Source of the DNA: Plastoroseomonas arctica | Lineage (GTDB): Bacteria; Pseudomonadota; Alphaproteobacteria; Acetobacterales; Acetobacteraceae | Assembly: GCF_018128965.1 (NCBI RefSeq) | Contig: NZ_JAAEDH010000024.1 | Coordinates: 1 to 64,000 of the forward strand | Direction: 5' to 3' | Length of the DNA: 64,000 nucleotides | Shown: piece by piece, positions 1-15,116 of the stretch | Position numbering within the stretch: position 1 is the first letter of the stretch | Layout: each line of letters starts with the position of its first letter | Made by a program: the position numbers and the translations under genes | Notes under the pieces: model-generated | The model's database searches: none | What the model was told of the DNA's origin: nothing | Seen by the model: the letters and a program-made list of their open reading frames with translations, nothing else

Positions 1-2793
1 ACCGGAGGCAGCGGCGAGCCCGGGGGGGGGCCGGGGTCCGCGCGCCGCACCGCGCAGGGCTTCGCCTTGGCCGCCGCGGCCTTCTCCGGCACGGCGGCGC
101 AGGAATCGCCGCTGGCCGCGCCGGGGCTGAACAGCCTGGCGACCAACCTCGACGGCAGCTCGCAATTCGGCGCACCACCCAGCGCCGACCAGCAGGTCGG
201 CGCGCAGGAGCCGCAGACGCCGGTCGTCGGCATGGAGGAACGGCGAAGCCTCTCGACCGGGCGGGTGCGGCGTATCAACCCCGAGTTCTCCGGCGCCCGC
301 ACGGCGGCCAATCCGACCGGGCGGCGCGCCGATGCCGGCACCCTCGCCGGCGGCGGCCCGGGCGGCGACATCCCTGCCGCGCGCTTCCGCAACCTGACGC
401 AGACCGCATTGCCGCAGGGCGCGGGCGCGTCCTTCTACGACGCGGTCGCGAATGTCTTCGTCGTCAACCTGCAGCTGCTCGGCACCGGTGGCGGCGACAG
501 CAACGTGCCACTGCAACCCAATCCGCAGAATACCGTGCGCTTCAGCGTCAGCGACACGGTAGCGCCCTCGGTCAGCCGCGACGTTCGCAATTTCGTCGTG
601 CGCGACACCACCAACGGCGAACTGCTGCGCGACGCCAACGGCCAGCCGCGGCGCTTCCGCTTCGAGGCGTCGAACGTCTTGGCCGATGTCGCGAACGGCC
701 AGTTGCTGCGCGACGCGCTGGGCAACCCGCTGGTGTTCGACTTCGCCGACAACGGCACGCGCACCAGCGACAGCCTCCGCGCCGTGCCGGTCACCGCCGC
801 ACACCGCGCGGGCTCAGTGCTCGAGGTTCCGACGCGGCCGCCCGGCGTGCGGACCGCGGCACCGCAGGGCGAGGTTTTCGCGCTCGCCGGCGGCAACGGC
901 CTCGCCGCGACGCGCGGCTCGCCGCTGCCCTCGGCGTCGGATCCCGTCGTCAACACCAACGCGACGGGCGGCCCAAATCCGGGAATCGTCCAGACGCGGG
1001 TTGAGCCAACCAGCACCTCGACGCCCGAGTTCGAGACGCGGATCACGACGGTCGCCCCGGGCGTGCAGCTCGTGTTCATCATCGACAAGGTCACCGAGGG
1101 TTCCGAGGCCATCACCCGCGAGCGCGGCATCCTGCCGGGCGAACGCTTCATCGTGGCCGGTGGCCAGCCGATCGCCACTCCCGCCGATGGCAGGCTGCCC
1201 GGCGCCGGCCCGGCCGGCCTCACGCCTGGCACGGTGGTGCGCTACGCGATCTCCGACGGGCTGAACCCGCTCGGTCCGGACGGCCAGCCCAACATCAACC
1301 GGCCCGGCGGCTGGCGCGCCGATGCCGGATCCACCATCGCCGCCCAGTTCTTGACGCCCGACGCGGCCTTCGGCCGGCCCCGCGCCTTCTCCACCTACAA
1401 CGCCTTCCGTCCGGAGGAGAGCTTCGTCCCCGAAGCCACGCGCGGCGACACCCACCTGCTGGTCGTCGCCGGCGAGGGCAACCGCCACCCCGCGATGCGC
1501 CTGGACCTTCAGGTGGCGCCGGACGGGCGGAGCAGCGCCGGCATCACGGTGGGCGGGCTACTCGTCCTGCCCGATGGCGGCGGCCTGGCGCTGAGTGCTG
1601 CGACGGTCGGCTCGGCCCGGCTCGGTCCCGGCGGCAGCCTGGCGGTCCGAGGCACCACCGGCTCCCTGGCCACCGCGGGCGACGCCTATTCCGGCCACCT
1701 GCTACCCAACACCGATCCGAGCATCGTCGCGGCCGGCGGCGGCGCGATCGGCCACTTCCTAGTGGGAGAAACCGATCCCCGGCTGGGCCGTCCCAACGCG
1801 CCGGCGGTGCGGCCGGGATCGGTGACGCCGGTCGGCGGTGGTGGGACGACGCCCTACGGCTTCACCCGGCTGGCCACCGGCGTCGGCCCCGTGGATGGGC
1901 CCGGCCGCACCGAGGACGGACGCACGCTGCAAGGTTTCGCCGCCGGCATCGCGGAGGTGCCGCTGGGCAATGGTCAGCTCGGTTACCATGCGGTGACCGG
2001 CGACGATCCGACCGCGGTCGCCGTCACACGCGGCGCCGGCGCCAGCGAGTTCGTCGCCTCGATCCGGACCGCGCCGGCGGCAGTGGGCGAGCTTGCCTCG
2101 GACCCGCTGGCGGCGCCGGCGGGCACCGGCGCCGCCACGCCGCGCACGCTGCGCTTCGGCGGGAACGGCCCGACCGGCGCACCCACCAGCGCCTTCGCCT
2201 CCGACGCGACCTTTGCCGCGGTAATCCCGGGACAGGCAGCGATGGCCAGCGTGGATGCGGACACCCGCGCCGGGATCGCCGGCGGCGGCGTAATGCCGCC
2301 GAGCAACGCCCATCTTGCCTGGGGGTTGTTCCTTGGGGACCTAGTCCCGCAGGCCGACGGTGCCAGCACGCGGGAGTATGTGGGCATGGGCTTCTGGGTC
2401 GCCGGGCGGCTGGTCGAACCATCCGTGCTATCCACCCTGACCGGCACGGCGAGCTATACCGGCGGCATGATCGGAACGGCGGTGGGGCCCGGCCGTGTGG
2501 CCACGGTGGTGGGAAACTTCCAGCAGAGCTGGGATTTCGCCCGTCGCGCAGGCGGCTTCAGCGCTCAGTTCGACGGCGCCGCCTACACGGCCGGCCTCGC
2601 GATGCCAGGTGGCTCCGCGGTGTTTGCCGGCAGCGGCACGACGGGCGACCGGACGCTGGCGGTGCGTGGCGGGTTCTTCAATGCCGGGCCGATCGCCAAT
2701 GGCACGCCCGGCGCGGTGGGCGGCGTATTTGGCATCCGCTCCACCGGTCCTTATGGCGCGAACGGGGTGTTTGTGGGGACCCCGCGCCCTTGA
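1..2793 (+). CDS. Large secreted or surface beta-rich protein, 5' end missing
   Basis: The reading frame is open from base 1, so the true start lies upstream and about 930 residues are visible. The protein is rich in Gly, Ala, Thr and Pro, appears to lack cysteine, and is predicted to be extracellular. Around residues 200-245 a short duplicated unit (NGELLRDANGQP / NGQLLRDALGNP) stands out. The last 200 residues are Gly-rich with alternating small and aromatic residues (WVAGRL, TGTASYTGG, FDGAAYTAGL). They resemble the C-terminal barrel-like domain seen on FecR-type and haemagglutinin-like surface proteins. The stop overlaps the start of the CHAT protease gene (TGATG), so the two are translationally coupled. 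That makes it a candidate substrate or partner of the protease. Function is inferred; no enzymatic motif is visible. Confidence 0.6.
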   Translation, partial: TGGSGEPGGGPGSARRTAQGFALAAAAFSGTAAQESPLAAPGLNSLATNLDGSSQFGAPPSADQQVGAQEPQTPVVGMEERRSLSTGRVRRINPEFSGARTAANPTGRRADAGTLAGGGPGGDIPAARFRNLTQTALPQGAGASFYDAVANVFVVNLQLLGTGGGDSNVPLQPNPQNTVRFSVSDTVAPSVSRDVRNFVVRDTTNGELLRDANGQPRRFRFEASNVLADVANGQLLRDALGNPLVFDFADNGTRTSDSLRAVPVTAAHRAGSVLEVPTRPPGVRTAAPQGEVFALAGGNGLAATRGSPLPSASDPVVNTNATGGPNPGIVQTRVEPTSTSTPEFETRITTVAPGVQLVFIIDKVTEGSEAITRERGILPGERFIVAGGQPIATPADGRLPGAGPAGLTPGTVVRYAISDGLNPLGPDGQPNINRPGGWRADAGSTIAAQFLTPDAAFGRPRAFSTYNAFRPEESFVPEATRGDTHLLVVAGEGNRHPAMRLDLQVAPDGRSSAGITVGGLLVLPDGGGLALSAATVGSARLGPGGSLAVRGTTGSLATAGDAYSGHLLPNTDPSIVAAGGGAIGHFLVGETDPRLGRPNAPAVRPGSVTPVGGGGTTPYGFTRLATGVGPVDGPGRTEDGRTLQGFAAGIAEVPLGNGQLGYHAVTGDDPTAVAVTRGAGASEFVASIRTAPAAVGELASDPLAAPAGTGAATPRTLRFGGNGPTGAPTSAFASDATFAAVIPGQAAMASVDADTRAGIAGGGVMPPSNAHLAWGLFLGDLVPQADGASTREYVGMGFWVAGRLVEPSVLSTLTGTASYTGGMIGTAVGPGRVATVVGNFQQSWDFARRAGGFSAQFDGAAYTAGLAMPGGSAVFAGSGTTGDRTLAVRGGFFNAGPIANGTPGAVGGVFGIRSTGPYGANGVFVGTPRP

Positions 2794-5700
2794 TGGAGAG
2801 GCCGGGCGAGACTCTGCAGGCGGCGAGATGCGGCTTACCCGCCGGGTGGAGCGGCCGCCGGCTTTCCTGGTGGAGGAGCATCCTGGGCCGGGCCGCTCTG
2901 CCGTGGCGCCTCGGTATCGCGCCCCTTACCTTGCGCGCGGCCTTGGTCGTACTGGTGCTTGGCGCAGCACCGGCCCCGGCCCAGTCGCCGCCCGACGCGG
3001 CGGCCGCCCTGGCAACAGCGCGCGCGACCGCCGCCGCAGGCGATCCCGCGGCCGCCGAGCGTTCGCTTTCCGACGTGTTCGCCCGCGCCGGCCAGCGCAT
3101 CGCGCCGCAGGACCTCGCCGTGCTGCGACTTGAGGCGGCGCGACTTGCTACCGATCCGGCCCGCGCAAGAGCGCATCTACACGAGGCGGAGCGCCTGCTG
3201 CCAGCCTTTCGGACGGAGCCAATTCTCGGTGCCAGGCTTCGCCGGGAACTCGCTCGCCTGCACGAGCAGCACGGTAGCTTCCCACGTGCCGAGCAGTTGC
3301 TGTCGCTGGCCCTTCCCGCCTTGGAGCGCGTCGACATTGCGGCGGCGGCCGACGCCGCTGGTGCCTTGGGGAGAGCGCGGCTCGAGCTTGTCCAGCTCGA
3401 CAGCGCCGCCGCGGCGTTCGAACGCAGCGTGGCCCTCCTGGCGTCGCTGCCGGGGAGCATGCCGAGAGACGAAGCGATCGTCGCAGCGCTCATAAACCTT
3501 TCGACCGCGTGGATCGAGGCGGGGAATATGTCCGCGGCGCGTGCTGCCGTGGGTCGGGCGCAATCCGCGGCGGAAGCGGCGCCGCTCATGCGGCGCCAGG
3601 TCGACTACGCGCGCGGCCATCTCCTGCTGCGTGACGGCAATCCGGCGGCCGCGGAGACTGTGCTCGTGCAGGCCGTCCAGGCTGCTGGTCCCGGCGATGT
3701 GGTTGCCGGCCATGCCCTGCTGTTGCTCACGACGTCACGCTTCGAGCGCGGCCGCTTGCCTGAAGCGGCCGAGGCAGGCTTGGCGGCTCTCGCCATCTAC
3801 GCGGCTTCGTTGGGGGAAGCGCATCCCGCCTATGCCAGAGTTCTGCATAGCCTCGGCAGCATCCATGCGGAACTTGGCGATCTGGTCGCCGCCGAGCGCT
3901 TCCTCTCACGCGCCGCAGGCATTCTGGAACACGCGCTCGGCCCGACATCGTCCCAGTTCCACTCAACCCAGCTTGAGCGCTCCTGGATCGCCGTGCAGAA
4001 CGGTCATCTTGACCTCGCGGAGCAGCGCGCACAGGCGGCTCTGAGAGCGTTCCGCGTTGCGCCGCCGCCCGACAGCCGTCTGCAAGGCTTGGCGTATGTC
4101 CTGCAAGGACTGGTTCAGGAAAAGAGGAGCCAGCTCGTACAGGCGACCGCATCCTACCGCTATGCGCAGGTACAGGTCGCCGCCGCGCGTGGCGTGAACT
4201 CCCCGGACCTTGGCTTTTCGCTGGTCCGACTGGGCCGCTTGCTGACCAGGACCGGCGAGTATGTCGAGGCGGCAGGGGCGCTGGAGCGTGCCATCGGCAT
4301 CTATGGCGGATTGGGTGACACCGGGACGGTACGCTACGCGGACGCCATCACCGCGCGCGCCGAGCTTCGCCTGAAAGCCGGTGACCGCAGCGGGTCTCTT
4401 GAAGATATCCGGCGTGGAATGGCCACGCTGCGGGGCCGCATCGCTGCTGTGGAGGATGCGGGGTCAGGATCCTCAGAAATGCAGCGCAGAGGCGCTCGGG
4501 AGATCTTTGGAGCGCAGGCGCGCATCCTTATCGACGTCCATGGTGCCGACGCGCCCGCGTCGTCCGAGGCGTTCTTGGCAACGCAGGAAGCCCTGACAAC
4601 GCGGGCAGGCGAGGCCTTGCGGCGTGCAGCCGGCCGTCGTGCCAGCGGAAGCGGCGACCTCGCCCGGCTCCTCAGGGAGCGGGAAGAAACACGAGACGCC
4701 TGGCGGCAAGCCAACGCCATCATTCTGGCCGCGGCCAATCGTGCCGGAGGTGCGCCCGCAGGCGAGATGAACCGCCTCATCGCCCATCGCGACGCACTGC
4801 GCGGTGCCATGACGACGCAGCACCGGGTGCTTGCCCGGCAGTTTCCCGACTATGCACGTTTCCTGGAGCAGCGCCCGGCCACACTGGCCGCGACGCAAGC
4901 CAGCCTGTCGGCCGACGAAGTTCTGCTGATGCCAGCCGTGTTCGCCGATTACGTCCTGCTTTGGACAATCACCCGCTCCTCCGCCAGGGCCGTCGTGATC
5001 GACGTCGCGCGGAGCTGGCTGATGCAGCAGGCACGTTTGCTGCGAGACGGCGTCGATCTCGCCCGCAATCCACCCGTTGAGTTCAGCATTCGCGCGGCAC
5101 GCGACCTTTATGACATCCTCATCCACCCGGCCCTCCGCGATCTGGAGCGGAGCATCGATCAGCTTCTGATCGTTCCCGATAGCCCATTCCAGTCGATGTC
5201 GCCGCACCTTCTGCTCGGACCTGGCAATCGCTGGCTGGTCCAGGATTTTGCCGTCACCGTGACGCCGTCGGTGGGCTCGCTGGTGGAGGCCAGGGCCGCA
5301 AACCGGACGTCGTCAACGGCACCAATGGCCTTCTTGGGCGTTGGCAATCCTCAGACGAGCCTTTACGCGACGCCTAGTCAGCTTGCCTCCCGAGGCTCAC
5401 ATCCCGACCTGCGCAACGCGTTGAGCAACCTGTCGCTGCTTCCAGGCTCGGCCGACGAGCTGCGCGCAATGGCCAGAACCTTTGGCGAGCCGCAGAGCAC
5501 CATCCTGCTAGAGGCTCAGGCAACGGAACGCGGGTTCATCGCGGCCATTCCCAGGCGGTTCCGCACCATCGCTTTCGCCACACACGCGCTCATGGCGGGC
5601 GAGTTGCCGCTGTTGACCGAGCCGGCCATCGTCCTGACCCCTGCAGACGAGGATATCCCCTACGAGGGCCTGCTGACCGCGTCCGACGTTGCCGCCCTAG

Positions 5701-6017
5701 AGCTCGATGCAGATTTGATCATCCTGTCGGCCTGCAACACAGCCGCGCCGGAGTCAGGTGCCTATGCGGACGCACTCTCTGGTCTTGCGCGCGCCTTCCT
5801 GCACGCGGGAGCGAGAAACCTCCTGGTGAGTCATTGGGCTGTCGACGATCGCGCGACCATCCAATTGACCACCTTGTTTGTTCAAGAGCTTCGCGCCTTA
5901 CCTGGACGCCCAATTGCAGGTGCGCTGCGTGCTGCAATTCTGACGATGATGAATGATCAGGCTCAAGTCTTTCGCCATCCCGCCTTTTGGGCACCGTTCA
6001 TTGTGGTCGGAAGCTAA
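2793..6017 (+). CDS. Secreted TPR-CHAT domain protease-like protein
   Basis: This is a 1074-residue protein. The N-terminus holds an Arg-rich stretch and then a hydrophobic segment ending in APAPAQ at about residue 65, consistent with a long signal peptide or membrane anchor. Residues 70-600 are helical TPR-like repeats (many A-x-x-x-L-x-x-A units with LGEAHPAYARVLHSLGSIHAELGD). The C-terminal 350 residues form a CHAT (caspase HetF associated with TPRs) domain. The likely catalytic His lies in FATHA (about 931) and the Cys in LSACNTA (about 980), followed by the typical LLVSHWAVDD motif. CHAT proteins are caspase-like cysteine peptidases often encoded beside their substrate. ATG at 2793 was chosen because it overlaps the upstream TGA. 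Substrate and trigger are unknown. Confidence 0.85.
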   Translation: MERPGETLQAARCGLPAGWSGRRLSWWRSILGRAALPWRLGIAPLTLRAALVVLVLGAAPAPAQSPPDAAAALATARATAAAGDPAAAERSLSDVFARAGQRIAPQDLAVLRLEAARLATDPARARAHLHEAERLLPAFRTEPILGARLRRELARLHEQHGSFPRAEQLLSLALPALERVDIAAAADAAGALGRARLELVQLDSAAAAFERSVALLASLPGSMPRDEAIVAALINLSTAWIEAGNMSAARAAVGRAQSAAEAAPLMRRQVDYARGHLLLRDGNPAAAETVLVQAVQAAGPGDVVAGHALLLLTTSRFERGRLPEAAEAGLAALAIYAASLGEAHPAYARVLHSLGSIHAELGDLVAAERFLSRAAGILEHALGPTSSQFHSTQLERSWIAVQNGHLDLAEQRAQAALRAFRVAPPPDSRLQGLAYVLQGLVQEKRSQLVQATASYRYAQVQVAAARGVNSPDLGFSLVRLGRLLTRTGEYVEAAGALERAIGIYGGLGDTGTVRYADAITARAELRLKAGDRSGSLEDIRRGMATLRGRIAAVEDAGSGSSEMQRRGAREIFGAQARILIDVHGADAPASSEAFLATQEALTTRAGEALRRAAGRRASGSGDLARLLREREETRDAWRQANAIILAAANRAGGAPAGEMNRLIAHRDALRGAMTTQHRVLARQFPDYARFLEQRPATLAATQASLSADEVLLMPAVFADYVLLWTITRSSARAVVIDVARSWLMQQARLLRDGVDLARNPPVEFSIRAARDLYDILIHPALRDLERSIDQLLIVPDSPFQSMSPHLLLGPGNRWLVQDFAVTVTPSVGSLVEARAANRTSSTAPMAFLGVGNPQTSLYATPSQLASRGSHPDLRNALSNLSLLPGSADELRAMARTFGEPQSTILLEAQATERGFIAAIPRRFRTIAFATHALMAGELPLLTEPAIVLTPADEDIPYEGLLTASDVAALELDADLIILSACNTAAPESGAYADALSGLARAFLHAGARNLLVSHWAVDDRATIQLTTLFVQELRALPGRPIAGALRAAILTMMNDQAQVFRHPAFWAPFIVVGS

Positions 6018-6675: not shown

Positions 6676-8010
6676 TTATTTCATATTGCCATCCGCACTA
6701 GCGCCCTCGCCGCATCGCAGGACATGCGCTCCCCAGGCTTCCAGCGCCGCCTTGCGCTCGGCAAGGAACTCGGCGCGTTGGTAGATTGCCGCCACGCCGC
6801 CAATGCTGCCGGTAACGTGGTTGAGCAGCCTGTCGGCAACATGTGGCGGGAAGCCTGCGCCGGCCAGCCAAGTAACCGCAGATCGGCGAAAGTCATGAAA
6901 TCGCCAACCTAACGCAATACAGTTGCCGCCTCTCTTGTGTTTTTTGGACCGCGGCGGAAGGTCTGCGGCAGCTTCCTGCGCCATCCCGGCATCGACTTTG
7001 GTCTTTGCTCGGCTGAACCCGCTCGGGGGGGTGGCGCCAGTCGTGCTGAAAACCAGCTCTTGCCCTTCCACGCGCCGCACCGCGCCAAGAAGCAAGCGGG
7101 CGGGCTGCGACAAGTGCACGACATGTGCCTTGGCATTCTTTGTCCGTGCAGACGGCACGGTCCATGTGGCGAGATCCAGGGCAAGTTCTGACCAGCGCAA
7201 GCCCGCCACTTCCTCGCGCCGTTGGGCGGTCAGTAGCAGCAGCTTCGTGATCGTTCCGAAGGGCTCGCCCAGGGTGCCAGCAGCGCGCCACACGGCACCG
7301 ATTTCCGTATCTGTCAGCACGCGGTCACGGGCAGGAGCGCCCCGCTCGATGCTCGGAAGTCCGGCAAATGGATTGAGCGTGAGGCGGCGGCGCTTGAGCG
7401 CCCAGCTATAGCATGCCCGGCCATAGGCCATTGTTCGTGCTGCCATTGGGGGGTGGCCCGCAGCCACCTGGCGATCAAGGATCGCCGTCACCGCCTCATG
7501 CGTGAGGGCAGCCGCAGGCTTTGCTAAATGGGCAGCGAACGCGTGACGCAGCGCCCTCTCGGCCTCCGTTGAGTAGCGCACACGACGGCTGGCAAGGTGC
7601 AGCTTCATCCAGTCATCGATGAGGCCTTCGAGCGTAAAGCGGGCAGTTTCTTTCGCAGCTGCTGCCGCAACGCGTGACGCTTCATCCGCTGCCTTCGCCG
7701 ACGCACGCTCGGCAGCCGGATTGATCCCTTGTGCGACTCGCCCCAAGCGAGCCTGTGCGGCGCCCCGTGCCTGCTCAAGCGTGATCGCCCCCCACAGTCC
7801 CAGCGGGACACGTTGCTTCCGCCCCGTCGCCTTGTCGGTCCACTGGACGAGAAAGACCCGCTCGATCCCGGCTGTCACCCCATCGCCCCGGGTTCGATAG
7901 GCTCGTACCCCAAGGCCTCGTGTGACGGTGTCGAAAGTCAGCCGATCTTTGGAGGAGCCTTCGGGCTTGAAGCTGTCAATGAAACGTTCGGTCAGCTTGG
8001 GCACCCGCAT
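6676..8010 (-). CDS. Tyrosine recombinase, P4-type integrase
   Basis: This 444-residue site-specific recombinase would insert and excise a genomic island at a tRNA gene. The N-terminal 90 residues match the arm-binding DUF4102 type (LTFDTVTRGLGVRAY, FLVQWTDKATGRKQRVPLG). A central SAM-like core-binding domain follows (TLEGLIDDWMKLH). The catalytic domain has the first Arg in LTAQRREEVAGLRW, the HxxR box in FHDFRRSAVTWLAG, the second His in LLNHVTGS and the nucleophile Tyr in AAIYQRAEF, so it looks intact. It is transcribed leftward, away from the tRNA-Thr fragment at 8175-8228. ATG at 8010 gives the full family N-terminus (MRVPKLTERF). Confidence 0.95.
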   Translation of the reverse strand: MRVPKLTERFIDSFKPEGSSKDRLTFDTVTRGLGVRAYRTRGDGVTAGIERVFLVQWTDKATGRKQRVPLGLWGAITLEQARGAAQARLGRVAQGINPAAERASAKAADEASRVAAAAAKETARFTLEGLIDDWMKLHLASRRVRYSTEAERALRHAFAAHLAKPAAALTHEAVTAILDRQVAAGHPPMAARTMAYGRACYSWALKRRRLTLNPFAGLPSIERGAPARDRVLTDTEIGAVWRAAGTLGEPFGTITKLLLLTAQRREEVAGLRWSELALDLATWTVPSARTKNAKAHVVHLSQPARLLLGAVRRVEGQELVFSTTGATPPSGFSRAKTKVDAGMAQEAAADLPPRSKKHKRGGNCIALGWRFHDFRRSAVTWLAGAGFPPHVADRLLNHVTGSIGGVAAIYQRAEFLAERKAALEAWGAHVLRCGEGASADGNMK

Positions 8011-8695: not shown

Positions 8696-11600
8696 ATGAG
8701 CGACTTCCTGCGCAAGCTGTTCGGTCTCCAGCAGCCGATGCCCCCGGCACCTGCGCCGGAATCTTGGACCGCCGCCCAGTCAGCGTTCCGGACCCTCATC
8801 GACCAAGCCGCCGCCTGGCGCGCAGCTCAGCCCGCCTCGCGGCAGCCGGATCGGAGGCCTCAAAACAATGCTCCATATCCCTCTCCCCAATACAGGGTCC
8901 TTTACGAGGAAAGCATTGATGCGGCCGTGATCGCCTCGTCCGATGCACAGCGCCTGGACCTTCTGCGGTGCTGCGATCTTACCGTTTCCATCGATGCTCT
9001 GGTCAGCTTGTCCGAGTCTGAGCGCTTGGAATTGCTCCCCTATGATTCATTCCCCCACCCCAGCACGCACCTGTTGCGCAGTCTGGTATTCGAGGCACTT
9101 TGCAAGCATTTCTCCGATACCTGCCCGGAAGCGGCCGCCGCCTATTTCACCGCCCTATCCGGGCGGGAGCGGCATCAGGGCCGAGCAATTTCGGGATTTC
9201 ATCGGGTCTGCAGGACGATGGAGCGCGGCGATCCCGAGGCCTACGCCAATCATGCGCCGCTCAGGCGGGCCTGGGAGGTCTTTCGAGCCAATCAGCCGCA
9301 TGGGCTTCACGACAACGCGCTGGTCGCGGCTGAACTGGAAGCGCGAGCGTCCAGCCTCATTGGCATCGATCCGCCACGGGGTTTTCGAAATCCGGTCTCC
9401 GGCACGACCGGTCTGGTCTCAATCGAGGATTTTCAACTCATCCGTGCCTATGTCGAGGCGACAGAGAGTTTCGCGTCGGAAGCCAAGCAGTGGTGCGATA
9501 AGGCTCGTGCTGTCGATAACGCTTGCTTTCGCGACGCGGCACTACGGTGGACGATCGCCAATAGCGTGCAGGTACCGCTGTATCCAGACGGGTGCCTGGA
9601 CGATTTTCCCTTGTTTAGGGCGGTTCCGCTTCGCGCGGCAGCCAGCATTCGCCCATCCCCGCCAGCATGGATGCTGGAGGCCGCCGCGATCTATCGCCGT
9701 GCCGAAACTTCGGAGAGGGGTTGGGCTGAACCGTGCTTGGCCCATGCAGCCTGGTATCCACATTCAAGCTGGATTCACGTCTGGGTGGACCGTCCCTGGT
9801 TATTGGAAAGTCGCGCCCTCGCTGAGAAACTCCTCCCCAATCCCCCTTTCGATTGGGCTGATAAGGAAGTTGTCAAACACGAGGCCCTCAGGCGCTGCGC
9901 CGACGGAACCTTGATTGCCTTACTGTCAAAGGCCCGCTCGTCCACGCCGTCGAAAACATGGCTGAACGCTGCCTCGGCCTTGCTGGGTTCGGCCGAGTGC
10001 GCCTCTGTTGTTGCGACGTGTGCCGAGTGGATCAAGACGTTCAACACATCTCTTCTCCCAATTTCGGAGGCTGTTGCCTTTCGCTGCGTGCAGTACTATC
10101 GCGACTATGAGCGTCGTGCGCTGAAAGAGATCGCGTTGTTCGGGGGATCGACAGACGCCGCCATCGTCAATGCGGTCATGATCCGGAACCCGTTCTCGCG
10201 CCCCGCGCGATATGGACACGTTGACCCCAACCTTCTGTCCACCGAAAATGACACCATCCTGCGCGGCATCATCTGGCTGAAGTCGCTCGACGCATCCAGT
10301 GTCGAGTTCATTCTCGAAGTCGCTCTCGCCTCGCTGGTTCGCATCGTGCACCCCGAGGGCGGCTTCCAATACCGCTCGCTGATCGGCGTGAACGCCTGCA
10401 TCTGGGCGCTCGGCCGCATCGCGACGCCGGAGGCCGTTACCGCGCTCGGCCGCATCCGCCGCCGCGTCCGCGACGAGCGCATTTCCAAACTACTCGCCAA
10501 GGCCATGGCCGAGGCCGCTATCCAGGCCGGCCTCACCATCGAGGCGCTGGAGGAGATCGCCACCCCTAGCCATGGGCTGGATGCCGCCGGCACCATCACC
10601 CAAAACCTCGCCGGCGGGATCACCGCCACCCTCGCCATCACCAGCAGCACCGAAGCCGCCGTCACGCTGACCGGGCCGACCGGCAAGCCGCTCAAATCGA
10701 CACCGGTCGCGGTCAAGTCGGACGCGGACAGCGCCGCCACCCTCAAATCCCTCAAGGCGACCGCCACTGAAATCGCCCAGACGCTGCCCTCCCACCGCCT
10801 GCGTCTCGAGCGCAGCTGGATCACCGGCACCAGTTGGACCGGGCGCGAGTTCCGCGAACGCTACCTCGAACACCCGCTGCTCAACTGGCTCGCCGCACGT
10901 CTCGTCTGGCGGCTTGCGCCGGCCGATGGTGGCCCCGCCCGCACCCTTTTCCTCCGCGATGGCCAAACCCCCATCGCCGCCGATGACCGCTCGCTTCCGG
11001 CGATCGAGGAGGGCGACACCCTGACCTTCTGGCACCCACTGACACCCGCCGAGCCCGACGCGGTCACCGACTGGCGCGACTTCCTCATCCGCCACGGCAT
11101 CACCCAGCCGATCAAGCAGGCGCATCGCGAGACCTACCCCCTCACCCCGGCCGAGGCCGCCACCGGCACCTATTCCAACCGCTTCGCCGGCCACATCATC
11201 CGCCAGGCACAATCCAACGCGCTCGCGCGCTTGCGCGGCTGGTCCGCCCGATCGCGCATCTGGGCCGATGTGCGCAATGACGAGCCGACGCACATCAAGA
11301 TTCCCGCCCATGGGCTCGCCGCCGAATTCTGGACCGAGGGCGCCGGCGGCGATGACCCGGAGGTGACGGATGCCCAGGCCTATCTGTTCCTGAAGACCGA
11401 CCGAATCCGCTTCCGTCGCCTCGCCGATGCCGGCGATTGGCGCCGCGATGGCGGCCGCCACCTGACCCTGCAGGACGAGACCATCCCGGTCGCCGACATC
11501 CCGCCGGTGGTCTTTTCCGAGGTGATGCGCGACGCCGACCTCTTCGTGGGCGTCGCCTCCATCGGCCACGACCCGAACTGGCTGGACGCGGGCGCCCATG

Positions 11601-11998
11601 CCCATCATCCCGACCAGTGGCGGCGTCAGGCCGGGGATCGCTACTGGCAGGATTTCAACACCGGCGCTCTCAGCGAGAGCGCCCGGTCACGCCGCGAATT
11701 CCTGCAGATGCTGGTGCCGAAGCTCGCCATCGCGGCATGCTGCGCCTTCGATGACCGCCACCTGTTCGTCCAGGGCAAGCGCGCGCGCTATGCGATCCAT
11801 CTGGGCTCGGGGAATGTCTTCATCGAGCCCGAGCACCGCTATCTTTGCATCGTCCCCGACATGAAGTCAGGCGCGCCGAACATCTTGCTTCCGTTCGAGG
11901 GCGATCGCCTGCTGTCAGCCATCCTCTCGAAGGTCTTTCTTCTGGCCAATGACACGGCCATCAAGGATGCGGGGATCCTTGCGCAAATCGGGCGGTGA
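8696..11998 (+). CDS. DUF4132 domain-containing protein
   Basis: This 1100-residue cytoplasmic protein has no signal peptide. Residues 700-900 match the DUF4132 region (EEGDTLTFWHPL, then DWRDFLIRHGITQPIKQAHRETYPL and YSNRFAGHII). The C-terminus carries the segment that usually follows it (GALSESARSRREFLQMLVPKL, HLGSGNVFIEPEHRYLCIVPD). The family includes the C-terminal part of E. coli MolR/YehI-type proteins and has no established biochemical function. The N-terminal half (about residues 55-540) is not recognised. Its DNA is clearly less GC-rich than the part from about 10330 onward, suggesting a mosaic origin. A 9-base gap from the upstream small gene suggests a two-gene operon. Confidence 0.85.
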   Translation: MSDFLRKLFGLQQPMPPAPAPESWTAAQSAFRTLIDQAAAWRAAQPASRQPDRRPQNNAPYPSPQYRVLYEESIDAAVIASSDAQRLDLLRCCDLTVSIDALVSLSESERLELLPYDSFPHPSTHLLRSLVFEALCKHFSDTCPEAAAAYFTALSGRERHQGRAISGFHRVCRTMERGDPEAYANHAPLRRAWEVFRANQPHGLHDNALVAAELEARASSLIGIDPPRGFRNPVSGTTGLVSIEDFQLIRAYVEATESFASEAKQWCDKARAVDNACFRDAALRWTIANSVQVPLYPDGCLDDFPLFRAVPLRAAASIRPSPPAWMLEAAAIYRRAETSERGWAEPCLAHAAWYPHSSWIHVWVDRPWLLESRALAEKLLPNPPFDWADKEVVKHEALRRCADGTLIALLSKARSSTPSKTWLNAASALLGSAECASVVATCAEWIKTFNTSLLPISEAVAFRCVQYYRDYERRALKEIALFGGSTDAAIVNAVMIRNPFSRPARYGHVDPNLLSTENDTILRGIIWLKSLDASSVEFILEVALASLVRIVHPEGGFQYRSLIGVNACIWALGRIATPEAVTALGRIRRRVRDERISKLLAKAMAEAAIQAGLTIEALEEIATPSHGLDAAGTITQNLAGGITATLAITSSTEAAVTLTGPTGKPLKSTPVAVKSDADSAATLKSLKATATEIAQTLPSHRLRLERSWITGTSWTGREFRERYLEHPLLNWLAARLVWRLAPADGGPARTLFLRDGQTPIAADDRSLPAIEEGDTLTFWHPLTPAEPDAVTDWRDFLIRHGITQPIKQAHRETYPLTPAEAATGTYSNRFAGHIIRQAQSNALARLRGWSARSRIWADVRNDEPTHIKIPAHGLAAEFWTEGAGGDDPEVTDAQAYLFLKTDRIRFRRLADAGDWRRDGGRHLTLQDETIPVADIPPVVFSEVMRDADLFVGVASIGHDPNWLDAGAHAHHPDQWRRQAGDRYWQDFNTGALSESARSRREFLQMLVPKLAIAACCAFDDRHLFVQGKRARYAIHLGSGNVFIEPEHRYLCIVPDMKSGAPNILLPFEGDRLLSAILSKVFLLANDTAIKDAGILAQIGR

Positions 11999-12125: not shown

Positions 12126-12752
12126 TCACCCCACGCGGATATCCACCTTCCTAAACCGCACCACCCCGCGGTCATTTACCGCACCCCCCGGCCCCGGAAC
12201 CCCCAGCCCGTGCTGCAACGCGATCCGCCCCGTCGCGAACTGCGCATTCCGCACGCCATCGGCCGTCTTCTGCCCGTTCAGCACCACAGTGAAGACATCG
12301 CCTGCCGCGGTGATCTCGTAGAGGTTCCATCGCCCGCTCGCCCGCGGCATGGGATCGACGGCGGCGACATCCACGATCGCGCCGGTGCCGTAGCGCTGCT
12401 CCGGCCGCTCATCCCAGATGTTCACCTCATAGGCATTCGCCGTGCCGATCGTCGTGGGGTTGGTGCAGCGGATGAAGATGCCGCTGTTGGCGGTGGTGTC
12501 CACGTAGAACTCGGCGCGCAGGTGGAAGTCGCGGTAGTCGCGCTGGGTCACCAGGAAGCCGTTGCCGCGGTCGGCGACGAAGGCGCCATCCTCCACCCGC
12601 CAGTTCGCATCGCCGACGCGGTCCCAGCCGGTGAAATCGCGGCCGTTGAACAAGGGCGTCAGGCCCTCGGCCTGGGCAAGCGCCCTGTTGCCCCCCGCGG
12701 CAAGCCCGGCCGTCGCGGCCAACAGCGGCACCAAGGTCCTACGTTTCATCAT
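12126..12752 (-). CDS. Secreted DUF1080 (3-keto-disaccharide hydrolase) family protein
   Basis: This 208-residue protein has a signal peptide (MMKRRTLVPLLAATAGLAAG, ending near RALAQA). The mature part is a single concanavalin-like beta-sandwich of the DUF1080 family. Typical motifs are LFNGRDFTGWDRVGD, WRVEDGAFVADRG, DFHLRAEFYVDTTANSGIF, AYEVNIWDE and GRIALQHG. Family members hydrolyse 3-keto-glycosides in the periplasm. Which sugar is used cannot be seen. It lies 88 bases downstream of a Bug-type receptor on the same strand, so the two may share a transcript. Confidence 0.85.
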   Translation of the reverse strand: MMKRRTLVPLLAATAGLAAGGNRALAQAEGLTPLFNGRDFTGWDRVGDANWRVEDGAFVADRGNGFLVTQRDYRDFHLRAEFYVDTTANSGIFIRCTNPTTIGTANAYEVNIWDERPEQRYGTGAIVDVAAVDPMPRASGRWNLYEITAAGDVFTVVLNGQKTADGVRNAQFATGRIALQHGLGVPGPGGAVNDRGVVRFRKVDIRVG

Positions 12753-12840
12753 GGCATTCCTCCCGATGTCTTCTTGTTGTCCAACCAGCCTACAGAGGTT
12801 GACCGGATCGGTTCAACGCCGGCCTGCCTTGCCGGCGCAC

Positions 12841-13803
12841 TCACTCCACCTCGATCCCCCCGGCCCGCGCGATCGCCGTGAAATCCGCCTGCTCCGCCCG
12901 CATGAAGGCCAGGCTCTCGCTCGGCGTCGTCACCCGCGGTGCCGCCCCCAGCTCCCGGATGCGCGCCACGATCATTTCCTCGCCCAGCACCTGGTTCACC
13001 GCCGCGTTCAGCCGGCCGATCACCTCCGCCGGTACCCCCTTGGGGGCCATGAAGGCGTACCAGGCGACGAATTCGCGCGGGTCCAGCCCCAGCTCCACCA
13101 TCGAGGGCACGTCGGGCAGCCGCGCCGACCGCTCCCGCGCCGTCACCGCCAGCGCCCGGAACCGGCCGCCCGCGATGTGCCCGTACCCGGCGCCGAGGCT
13201 GTCCAGCATGATCGGCACCTGCCCCGCGATCACGTCCATCTGAGCCTGCGGCGTGGAGCGGTACGGAACCGCGGGGATGACCAGCCCGTGCCGGCGCTTG
13301 AAATCCTCGACGACCAGGTGGTTGATGCTGCCCGAGCTCGGCAGCGCATAGCGCCATTGCTCCGGCGCGGCGCGGGCGGCGGCCATCAGCTCGGCCATGG
13401 TGTGGAACGGCACGCCAGGGTTCACCACCCACACCAGCGGCGAGGTCACGGCCACTGCCACGGCGGCGAGTTCCTCCACCGGGTTCAGCGGCATGTTGCG
13501 GTAGATGGCCGTGTTGATGGTCAGCGCACCGACATGGGCGAACATGATGGTGTGGCCATCGGCGGGGCTGCGCTGCACCTCCGCCATGCCGATATTGCCG
13601 TTCGCGCCGGGCCGGTTGTCCACCACCACCGGCTGGCCGAGGAGTTCCGCCAGGCGCGGGGCCATGATGCGGGCATAGGTGTCGTAGCCACCGGCGGCAC
13701 TCGGCACCACGCAGCGGATGGCGCGGCTGGGAAAGGCGCGGGTCTGGGCGGCGGCCGGCGCGGCGGCGAGCAGCCCAAGCGTGGCGCGACGGGTGAGGCC
13801 CAT
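12841..13803 (-). CDS. Bug/TctC-family periplasmic substrate-binding protein
   Basis: This 320-residue protein begins with a twin-arginine-like signal (MGLTRRATLGLLAAAPAAAQ). It carries the Bug fold signatures: RCVVPSAAGGYDTYARI near the N-terminus, QPVVVDNRPGANGNIG, and LPDVPSMVELG before the C-terminal lobe. Bug proteins bind carboxylates such as tricarboxylates, aromatic acids or amino acids for TctAB transporters, and often occur alone. No TctA or TctB gene is nearby, so its transporter and ligand are unknown. ATG at 13803 was chosen over a longer frame because it places the signal peptide at the N-terminus. It is divergent from the epoxide hydrolase gene. Confidence 0.92.
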   Translation of the reverse strand: MGLTRRATLGLLAAAPAAAQTRAFPSRAIRCVVPSAAGGYDTYARIMAPRLAELLGQPVVVDNRPGANGNIGMAEVQRSPADGHTIMFAHVGALTINTAIYRNMPLNPVEELAAVAVAVTSPLVWVVNPGVPFHTMAELMAAARAAPEQWRYALPSSGSINHLVVEDFKRRHGLVIPAVPYRSTPQAQMDVIAGQVPIMLDSLGAGYGHIAGGRFRALAVTARERSARLPDVPSMVELGLDPREFVAWYAFMAPKGVPAEVIGRLNAAVNQVLGEEMIVARIRELGAAPRVTTPSESLAFMRAEQADFTAIARAGGIEVE

Positions 13804-13931
13804 GATCGTTCCCTCTTGCTTTTTCCGCATCGAAGCAGGGATGCGGGGGCGAGGGAACCGGCGAATGCGCGCCGGCGCTTGACGCGGCACCCGGGCGGCG
13901 CTCGGCTGCGCGCCCGTCCCGGGAGGATCCC

Positions 13932-15116
13932 ATGACCCCGTTCCGCCTCGCCATTCCCGACGAAGCCCTGGCCGACCTCAGCACCCGCCTCGCGCTGACC
14001 CGCCTGCCGGACCAGGCGCCGGGCGCGCCCTGGGCCTATGGCACCGACGTCGCCTGTCTGGGCGACCTCATCGCGTATTGGCAGCACGGCTTCGACTGGC
14101 GCGCGCAGGAGGCGGCGCTCAATGCTTTTCCGCAATTCACGGTTCCCCTGCACGGCATCGACCTGCATGGCCTGCACGTGCCGGGGAAGGGGCCGAACCC
14201 GACGCCGCTGCTGCTGATGCATGGCTGGCCGGGCTCGGTGTTCGAGTTCCTCGACATCATCCCGCGCCTGACCGACCCCGCTGCCTTCGGTGGCGATCCG
14301 GCCGATGCCTTCACGGTCGTCGCACCCTCGCTGCCCGGCTATGGCCTGTCCTTCGCGCCGGGCCAGCCGCGCTTCGGCGTCGCCGAAATCGCGGATTGCC
14401 TGGCGGAGCTGATGACCAAGGTGCTCGGCTATCCGCGCTTCGCCGCCCAGGGGGGTGACTGGGGCGCCTCCATCGCCTCGAACCTCGGGGCGGTGCATGC
14501 GGAGACGCTGATCGGCATCCACATCAATCTTCTCGCGATGCGCCCGGACGTGCCGCCGCCGGCGAATCCCACCGCGGAGGAAGCGCGCTACGCCGCCGAG
14601 GTGGCCGAATGGCTGCGCGAGGAGGCCGGCTACCAGGCGATCCAGGGCACGCGCCCGCAGACGCTGGCCTTCGCGCTGACCGACAGCCCGGCCGGCCTCG
14701 CCGCCTGGATCGCCGAGAAATTCCATGCCTGGACGGACAATGACGGCGCCATCGAAAGCGCCGTGGACCGCGACCGGATGCTCGCGAACATCGCGCTGTA
14801 CTGGTTCACCGGCTGCATCGGCGCGTCCTTCTGGCCCTATTACGCGCGGCTGCACGGCGCCTGGCCGATCCCCGAGGGGCGCACCGTCGACGTGCCGATG
14901 GGTTATGCCGCCTTCCCGCGCGAAATCCGCCGCCCGCCGCGCAGCATTGCCGCGCGCAGCTACACCGACATCCGGCGCTGGACGGTCATGCCCAAGGGCG
15001 GGCATTTCGCCGCGATGGAGCAGCCCGCTGCCCTGGCCGCCGATATCGCGGCCTTCTTCCGGCCGCTGCGCGAGGCCGCTACGGCGCCAGGGACTGCGCC
15101 ACCGCGAGGGCCGTGA
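13932..15116 (+). CDS. Epoxide hydrolase family protein (EHN plus alpha/beta hydrolase)
   Basis: This 394-residue protein has the N-terminal epoxide hydrolase domain (FRLAIPDEALADLSTRLALTRLPD, residues 3-110). An alpha/beta hydrolase core follows. The oxyanion HGWPGS motif, the nucleophile Asp in GGDWGAS (about residue 176) and the catalytic His in PKGGHFAAMEQP (about 358) are all present. The predicted reaction is hydrolysis of an epoxide to a diol; the natural substrate is not evident. Its last 38 bases overlap, tail to tail, the end of maeB on the other strand. It shares an intergenic region of about 130 bases with the divergent Bug gene. Confidence 0.9.
   Translation: MTPFRLAIPDEALADLSTRLALTRLPDQAPGAPWAYGTDVACLGDLIAYWQHGFDWRAQEAALNAFPQFTVPLHGIDLHGLHVPGKGPNPTPLLLMHGWPGSVFEFLDIIPRLTDPAAFGGDPADAFTVVAPSLPGYGLSFAPGQPRFGVAEIADCLAELMTKVLGYPRFAAQGGDWGASIASNLGAVHAETLIGIHINLLAMRPDVPPPANPTAEEARYAAEVAEWLREEAGYQAIQGTRPQTLAFALTDSPAGLAAWIAEKFHAWTDNDGAIESAVDRDRMLANIALYWFTGCIGASFWPYYARLHGAWPIPEGRTVDVPMGYAAFPREIRRPPRSIAARSYTDIRRWTVMPKGGHFAAMEQPAALAADIAAFFRPLREAATAPGTAPPRGP

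Follow-up and report, generated by a model that had tools for sequence, protein, structure and literature searches.

Two neighboring plus-strand open reading frames (ORFs) begin the stretch of Plastoroseomonas arctica DNA analyzed here (hereafter the window), which comprises bases 1–64000 of contig C24 in a genome of 4.44 Mb and 51 contigs. The first (1–2793) has an open 5′ end and encodes the C-terminal part of a large surface-type protein, which we call the exoprotein, and the second, which stops at 6017, encodes a putatively exported protease with a tetratricopeptide repeat (TPR) solenoid and a caspase-like CHAT domain (Table 1). Since the window begins at base 1 of its contig, the exoprotein gene is 5′-truncated. 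A preliminary description of this DNA had noted the coupled genes and proposed an extracytoplasmic protease-substrate pair; its observation was partly confirmed and its interpretation partly supported by the results below.

The CHAT gene lay directly downstream of the exoprotein gene in all five loci found. The C-terminal part of the exoprotein occurred in only 3 of the 249 genomes of the family, at four places, each time with a CHAT gene downstream, and a scan of named genomes added Roseomonas rubea with the gene order unchanged. In four contiguous loci this order was Slam, exoprotein, CHAT: a second full copy in the window genome (contig C4, locus L005), Plastoroseomonas hellenica (G002, of the same genus as the window), Pseudoroseomonas coralli (G186), and R. 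rubea; the window, joined with the end of contig C12, represents the fifth. Four of the five Slam proteins passed the PF04575 cut-off of 22 bits (C12, 33.2; C4, 22.3; G002, 32.6; G186, E 9.3e-13), and that of R. rubea, at 16.3 bits below the cut-off, is 55% identical to the C12 Slam. Together with a wider CHAT-exoprotein pairing in a related clade, these loci bear out the expectation that the pair is conserved elsewhere. The rarity of the Slam-type exoprotein could suggest that genes with unrelated roles came to adjoin by chance in a single lineage. However, the pair is kept even though the other exoproteins share only 41–54% identity with that of the window, and 93 of 101 related CHAT genes also lie behind a long ORF, so this explanation is already hard to hold and retains next to no probability.

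The first part of the window exoprotein gene, and the Slam gene before it, very likely sit at the end of contig C12, as judged by elimination. There, the Slam gene is followed by a plausible ribosome site and then an exoprotein start, and the reading frame breaks off in a GGASGGIGG repeat. Aligned to the C4 exoprotein, the C12 piece extends up to residue 239 and the window piece resumes from about residue 342. Genome searches recovered two exoprotein N-parts (C4 and C12) and two C-parts (C4 and C24); because the C4 pair is complete, elimination leaves the C12 end and the C24 start as one gene. The missing 5′ part of the gene and its upstream neighbor, which the preliminary description had proposed to recover, thus very likely lie in the same genome, with elimination as the sole basis of the join. 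PF04773 (cut-off 24 bits) gave sub-threshold matches to the FecR-like N-part of the C12 piece (19.9 bits) and, more weakly, to a region of the C4 exoprotein (12.8 bits). A signal-like N-terminus in the C12 piece and in the relatives is consistent with the proposed export of the exoprotein; the window piece does not include that end. We also observed an inverted fragment (L018 9502–9840, minus strand) that is 68% identical to the Slam N-terminus; it lies some 0.5 kb ahead of the intact Slam gene of C12 and is perhaps a remnant of duplication.

The two window genes had been described as made together owing to overlapping stop and start codons. The TGA of the exoprotein gene (2791–2793) and an ATG of the CHAT frame (2793–2795) do have one base in common, and the R. 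rubea junction (L113) likewise reads TGATG, with the stop at 5668–5670 and the ATG from 5670. Whether ATG 2793 is the true start in the window is not certain, as the gene caller favored TTG 2931, which leaves a gap of 137 bases and a shorter signal sequence. Codon usage offers weak guidance, with a mean log-odds of -0.135 for 2793–2930 and of 0.200, 0.092, and 0.001 for the next three 138-base stretches of the frame. Elsewhere, the gaps are 7 bases in C4, 7 in G002, 85 in G186 (best-scored start), and -1 in R. rubea. The close spacing of the two genes is real.

Table 1. Features of the window and of the homologous loci in the same genome.
Feature	Location	Strand	Remarks
Exoprotein gene, 3′ part	1..2793	+	930 aa; 5′ part off contig C24, homologous N-part at C12 end
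C-terminal eight-stranded Slam-cargo-type barrel	2419..2790	+	Model residues 434–557; Foldseek matches; Slam-adjacent in other Alphaproteobacteria
TGATG junction	2791..2795	+	Exoprotein stop overlaps ATG of CHAT frame; alternative start TTG 2931
TPR-CHAT protease gene, putatively exported	2793..6017	+	1074 codons from ATG 2793; 1028 from TTG 2931
TPR solenoid	2997..4904	+	Residues about 69–704, all helical in model; Pfam TPR_12 and others
CHAT (caspase-like) domain	5094..6014	+	Residues 768–1074; PF12770
Predicted catalytic His931 (motif ATHA)	5583..5585	+	Conserved column
Predicted catalytic Cys981 (motif SACN)	5733..5735	+	Conserved column
Slam-like ORF, C4 copy	L005 3596–4999		
Exoprotein, C4 copy	L005 5023–8631		Signal-like start, weakly FecR-like region
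CHAT gene, C4 copy	L005 8639–11725		
Exoprotein N-part at C12 end	L018 11774–12553		260 residues; breaks off in repeat

The 930 exoprotein residues encoded in the window include no cysteine and gave no hit at E ≤ 1 in Pfam or NCBIfam. A structure model covering bases 1120–2790 had a mean predicted local distance difference test (pLDDT) score of 38, and eight strands were placed in model residues 443–555 with a local pLDDT of about 47–88. The top Foldseek match to this barrel in the PDB was the NHBA C-domain (6cuj; E 6.7e-7, TMt 0.71), and another NHBA entry, 5o1r, matched with TMt values of 0.77 and 0.81. Ten PDB matches reached E ≤ 0.001, comprising the NHBA C-terminal domain, TbpB, fHbp:PorA chimeras, and an entry whose title says only that it is a meningococcal vaccine target; weaker matches to a haemophore (E 5.6e-3) and HpuA (E 9.2e-3) were mixed with unrelated barrels. 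A review counts TbpB, fHbp, and HpuA among the Slam cargo and enters NHBA as "Slam?" (PMC5472700). A profile built from four barrels matched in 22 of 384 other genomes of the class, and 10 of the 20 loci read carried a Slam ORF. Because the barrel matches Slam cargo and these loci often carry Slam, the exoprotein is probably a Slam-type cargo; as in type 11 secretion loci, a TbpB/NHBA-type eight-stranded barrel at the C-terminus and a Slam gene beside the cargo gene are both present. None of the 20 class loci had a CHAT gene or a FecR-like N-part by our own profiles, some flanks being short, so CHAT would be dispensable for Slam export, and CHAT and FecR look like additions of this lineage.

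The window CHAT domain matched PF12770 with an E of 4e-58 and 197.6 bits (cut-off 24), and three relatives scored 185.8, 189.1, and 187.7 bits. Over 126 aligned CHAT domains, the predicted catalytic Cys was retained in 126 and the His in 125, the sole domain without His belonging to a broken ORF; the window protein is therefore predicted to be an endopeptidase with an intact His-Cys pair. The long TPR solenoid and the tight spacing behind giant exoproteins would also suit a protein that serves the exoprotein as chaperone or tether and maintains its competence for export, with catalysis secondary. Against such a role, no other column is as conserved as the catalytic Cys, and the CHAT chains of C4, G002, and G186 retain no other Cys (R. 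rubea has three), so we give this explanation a low probability. The only other Cys of the window protein, residue 13, precedes a hydrophobic signal-like core at about residues 49–58, and no lipobox was found in the window CHAT protein. The preliminary picture of an exported and catalytically intact protease is thus consistent with the N-terminus and the dyad; export was judged from hydrophobic N-terminal signal-like stretches, by eye and with simple rules of our own.

The model of the CHAT protein had a mean pLDDT of 70 and was poor across much of residues 836–1006. Its Foldseek list consisted mostly of TPR solenoids, and human separase was among the first matches; given the low TM-scores and a root-mean-square deviation near 30, the separase match says little about the CHAT domain. 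Two known groups were considered and rejected. The window protein scored 9.8 bits with the Csx29 model (cut-off 300), which argues against a TPR-CHAT protein linked to clustered regularly interspaced short palindromic repeats (CRISPR), such as Craspase or Csx29, and three of the four CHAT proteins of the genome matched no PADLOC defense family at E ≤ 0.01, in agreement with the earlier view that this CHAT protein differs from the known defense types.

CHAT proteins were detected in 104 of the 249 family genomes (E ≤ 1e-10). The 135 rows corresponded to 134 places after merging two rows of one broken ORF, and 125 places were examined. A quick tree search, with SH-like approximate likelihood ratio test (SH-aLRT) support and no bootstrap, covered 114 proteins no shorter than 850 aa (113 plus R. 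rubea; 12 rows below 850 aa after trimming were left out). The five Slam-linked CHAT proteins formed one clade (SH-aLRT 100), 101 others formed a neighboring clade (SH-aLRT 100), and eight long-branched rows fell outside both. By our own rule, a lipobox was present in 97 of these 101 proteins, 87 of which had a C-x(1-3)-P motif following it, as against 17 and 4 in two other windows of the same 101 proteins; none was found in the four Slam-type CHAT proteins tested or in the eight outside rows. In the lipoprotein-type proteins, Cys 69, 110, and 129 are invariant (13 rows) within an N-terminal stretch that the Slam type lacks.

Directly upstream of the 101 CHAT genes, we found a long ORF in 93 cases (350 aa or more, with 200 aa sufficing where the ORF was open at the locus edge), a contig end in three, and something else in five. 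These 93 ORFs measured at least 1000 aa in 70 cases, and 63 ran off the stretch; the one in L059 has an end resembling that of a membrane protein and is unlikely to be an exoprotein. When the N-terminal 450 aa of 20 of the 22 upstream ORFs of this clade with a called start were scanned (the short L059 and L106 were left out), all 20 matched the two-partner secretion (TPS) domain and no other domain. The genes two positions upstream were tested in 14 of 16 ORFs (two Slams were left out, each being scored with PF04575 separately), and 13 were ShlB/FhaC partners, the remaining one being the G186 Slam. Since the Slam-linked and TPS-type proteins form separate clades, the type of partner appears to follow the type of protease. 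A TPS domain and an ShlB/FhaC partner were thus found in the sister loci tested and are lacking in the window pair; gene 1, the C12 N-part, and the whole C4 exoprotein gave no match to the TPS domain. We therefore rejected gene 1 as a TPS exoprotein, given also that its translocator is Slam and that it lacks the C-terminal features described next.

The FecR-like N-part of the C12 piece would fit a sensing role in the envelope, the exoprotein or some other protein being cut by CHAT to pass on a signal rather than to release an adhesin. There is precedent in the TPR-CHAT protease Csx29, which cuts the neighbor-encoded Csx30 and so relieves a sigma-factor inhibitor (PMC10028731). However, the FecR match is under its cut-off, and the 20 N-terminal parts of the TPS branch matched nothing but the TPS domain. 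We regard signaling as unlikely, though the least so of the alternatives.

Many TPS partners end in YRFN-x-C-x-I-x-S-V-N-C, a linker, and then about D-x-D-V-x-L-P-N-V-A-x-x-D-Y at the last residue (a tail of about LPNVAEEDY). With patterns picked after inspecting exoprotein ends, the Cys pair was found in 86 and the strict tail in 67 of the 93 upstream ORFs, and neither in 214 other genes; a loose tail pattern matched 88 of 93 versus 24 of 214. The control genes were drawn from just the first 65 loci, whose own upstream ORFs had the strict tail in 36 of 51 and the Cys pair in 48 of 51. A profile of the exoprotein end matched in 97 of 249 genomes; CHAT was present in 92 of these, and 12 genomes had CHAT only (Fisher p 8e-48, ignoring relatedness). 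Where the match reached the tail, CHAT was present in 84 of 85 family genomes; in the exception, G099, two contigs stop 124 and 809 bases after the exoprotein stop codon.

Locally, the association was looser. The profile matched at 123 places (two rows of one gene merged), of which 96 reached the tail, with CHAT within 4.5 kb in 85 and not in 11, and 27 stopped short, 11 with CHAT and 16 without. Among the 11 tailed places without CHAT, L216, L220, and L222 meet a contig edge before a CHAT gene would fit, and three others lie less than 2 kb from a contig start. Twelve of the 16 short-stopping places without CHAT were read: four end tail-like (L223, L225, L226, and L227), seven do not, and one is cut. 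The idea that the tail is exclusive to CHAT neighbors is refuted by such tailed or tail-like exoproteins without an adjacent CHAT gene, and in these genomes the link of tail and CHAT is tight at the genome level but not strictly local. Two genomes have a TPS exoprotein with the tail on one contig and a lipoprotein CHAT on another (L218/L079 in G195 and L217/L059 in G175), possibly as unlinked pairs.

An exported CHAT protease encoded together with a putatively exported exoprotein might instead act on the proteins of a host or on foreign cells, and the exoprotein would then serve as its carrier or as an adhesin. The lipobox, common in the TPS-type clade though not seen in the Slam type, is expected to hold those proteins on their own envelope, and it is the exoprotein's own C-terminal tail that co-occurs with CHAT; a foreign target therefore appears improbable, more so even than the chaperone role.

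A profile of 13 lipoprotein CHAT proteins matched in 64 of 376 class genomes (its own included) at E ≤ 1e-40. Of 29 loci outside the family, three had no single-frame CHAT ORF and 12 had an upstream ORF piece of at least 320 aa within a 1.5 kb flank; none of these 12 had the strict tail. Some upstream ORF ends are alike within groups (SNTGKDxLWRLDL in three loci; PGLEQQFPNLGRVW; loci L238, L239, L241, L245, and L246), hinting that tail and protease change together across families.

Taken together, we favor, with somewhat more confidence than doubt, a cluster of Slam, cargo exoprotein, and exported TPR-CHAT endopeptidase in which the protease cuts the exoprotein in the envelope and so matures or releases it. 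Gene content and order in relatives, conservation, the barrel, the signal-like N-termini, and the His-Cys pair were read from sequence, and from these we infer export and cleavage. The exoprotein would pass by Sec into the periplasm and then by Slam across the outer membrane, and the Slam-type CHAT protein would be exported as a soluble envelope protein. The TPR solenoid may grip the exoprotein for the CHAT domain to cut, which would mature or free the exported part. In the window pair, the cut might fall within the linker joining the FecR-like N-part to the beta part; this site is the least supported element. Lipoprotein CHAT proteins may do an equivalent job on TPS exoproteins, most likely cutting or gripping the tail after the knot of the Cys pair, and thereby free or hold the adhesin at the TpsB pore. 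That they would cut or guard the tail is suggested by the adjoining gene for a knot-and-tail exoprotein, as in the LapG-CdrA picture considered below.

Several observations weigh against this interpretation. The argument from the tail does not extend to the window exoprotein, in which both the TPS-type tail and the Cys pair are absent, and exoprotein ends differ in other families. No CHAT gene was present in the roughly 4 kb read downstream of five tailed exoproteins (L215, L217, L218, L219, and L221). Barrels of the Slam-cargo type in other loci of the class seem to manage without CHAT, the exoprotein model is unreliable outside the barrel, and C12 and C24 were joined by elimination.

Beyond the CHAT gene, about 0.66 kb behind it, the window carries a tyrosine integrase on the opposite strand (Phage_integrase and Arm-DNA-bind_3; 6676–8010, minus strand), followed by a gene for a DUF4132 and DUF7737 protein (8696–11998, plus strand), a region that is a possible edge of an integrated island. 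Genes of ordinary metabolism (3-keto-disaccharide hydrolase, TctC receptor, and epoxide hydrolase) occupy 12126–15116.

LapG belongs to another protease family. In function, the proposed pair resembles LapG and the TPS surface adhesin CdrA, which is released when this periplasmic protease cuts its C-terminal tail, retained in the periplasm (PMC5422565). According to the same review, the C-termini of HMW1 and HxuA are retained, or expected to be retained, in the periplasm, where a disulfide knot locks them in TpsB (PMC5422565). The Cys pair near the C-terminus of the TPS exoproteins, which we infer to form a disulfide, is similar, but here the pair is mostly followed by the conserved tail and then by the gene of a lipoprotein protease. 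In that review, genes for TPS maturation proteases do not seem to belong to the TPS operons, and some of these proteases are left unidentified (PMC5422565); unlike in those operons, the CHAT gene directly follows the exoprotein gene. NalP, which releases NHBA and LbpB, offers another likeness, as a lipid-anchored protease freeing surface proteins of the Slam-cargo group (PMC5472700), and the window barrel is nearest that of NHBA; NalP differs in being a subtilisin-like autotransporter, and its targets also include several autotransporters.

Csx29 and Craspase share the TPR-CHAT architecture and the cutting of a neighbor-encoded protein (PMC10028731), but act in an RNA-activated CRISPR complex, and the window protein scored far below the Csx29 cut-off. 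HetF of cyanobacteria, a divisome component, is a CHAT-domain protein outside defense (PMC8406250). Type 11 loci also have Slam adjoining barrel-ended cargo, but by word search CHAT and FecR are absent from the main text of two surveys of such loci (PMC12282271 and PMC8406197). In open full-text literature, which leaves most subscription journals outside, the CHAT domain was not joined with two-partner secretion, FecR, or hemagglutinin and secretion, nor two-partner secretion with caspase-like proteins, which is no proof of novelty.

The literature on bacterial TPR-CHAT proteases, as drawn on here, deals largely with CRISPR complexes and cell death; the conserved branch found in this study looks exported and tied to surface proteins. 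We would put at even odds the broader proposal that exported TPR-CHAT proteases are a general target-adjacent device for processing large exoproteins in Alphaproteobacteria, serving the unrelated outer-membrane routes TPS and Slam, and that in the TPS branch the tail after the Cys-pair knot is a new kind of C-terminal signal for processing or sorting, read by a dedicated caspase-like lipoprotein. The short conserved tail of the TPS exoproteins is a candidate recognition site, and the TPS-CHAT loci, in which the genes for pore, adhesin, and protease adjoin, provide a direct and testable counter-example to the view taken in PMC5422565. That the same CHAT-exoprotein pairing occurs behind two secretion machines suggests that these bacteria may have a built-in protease for trimming or releasing their surface proteins.

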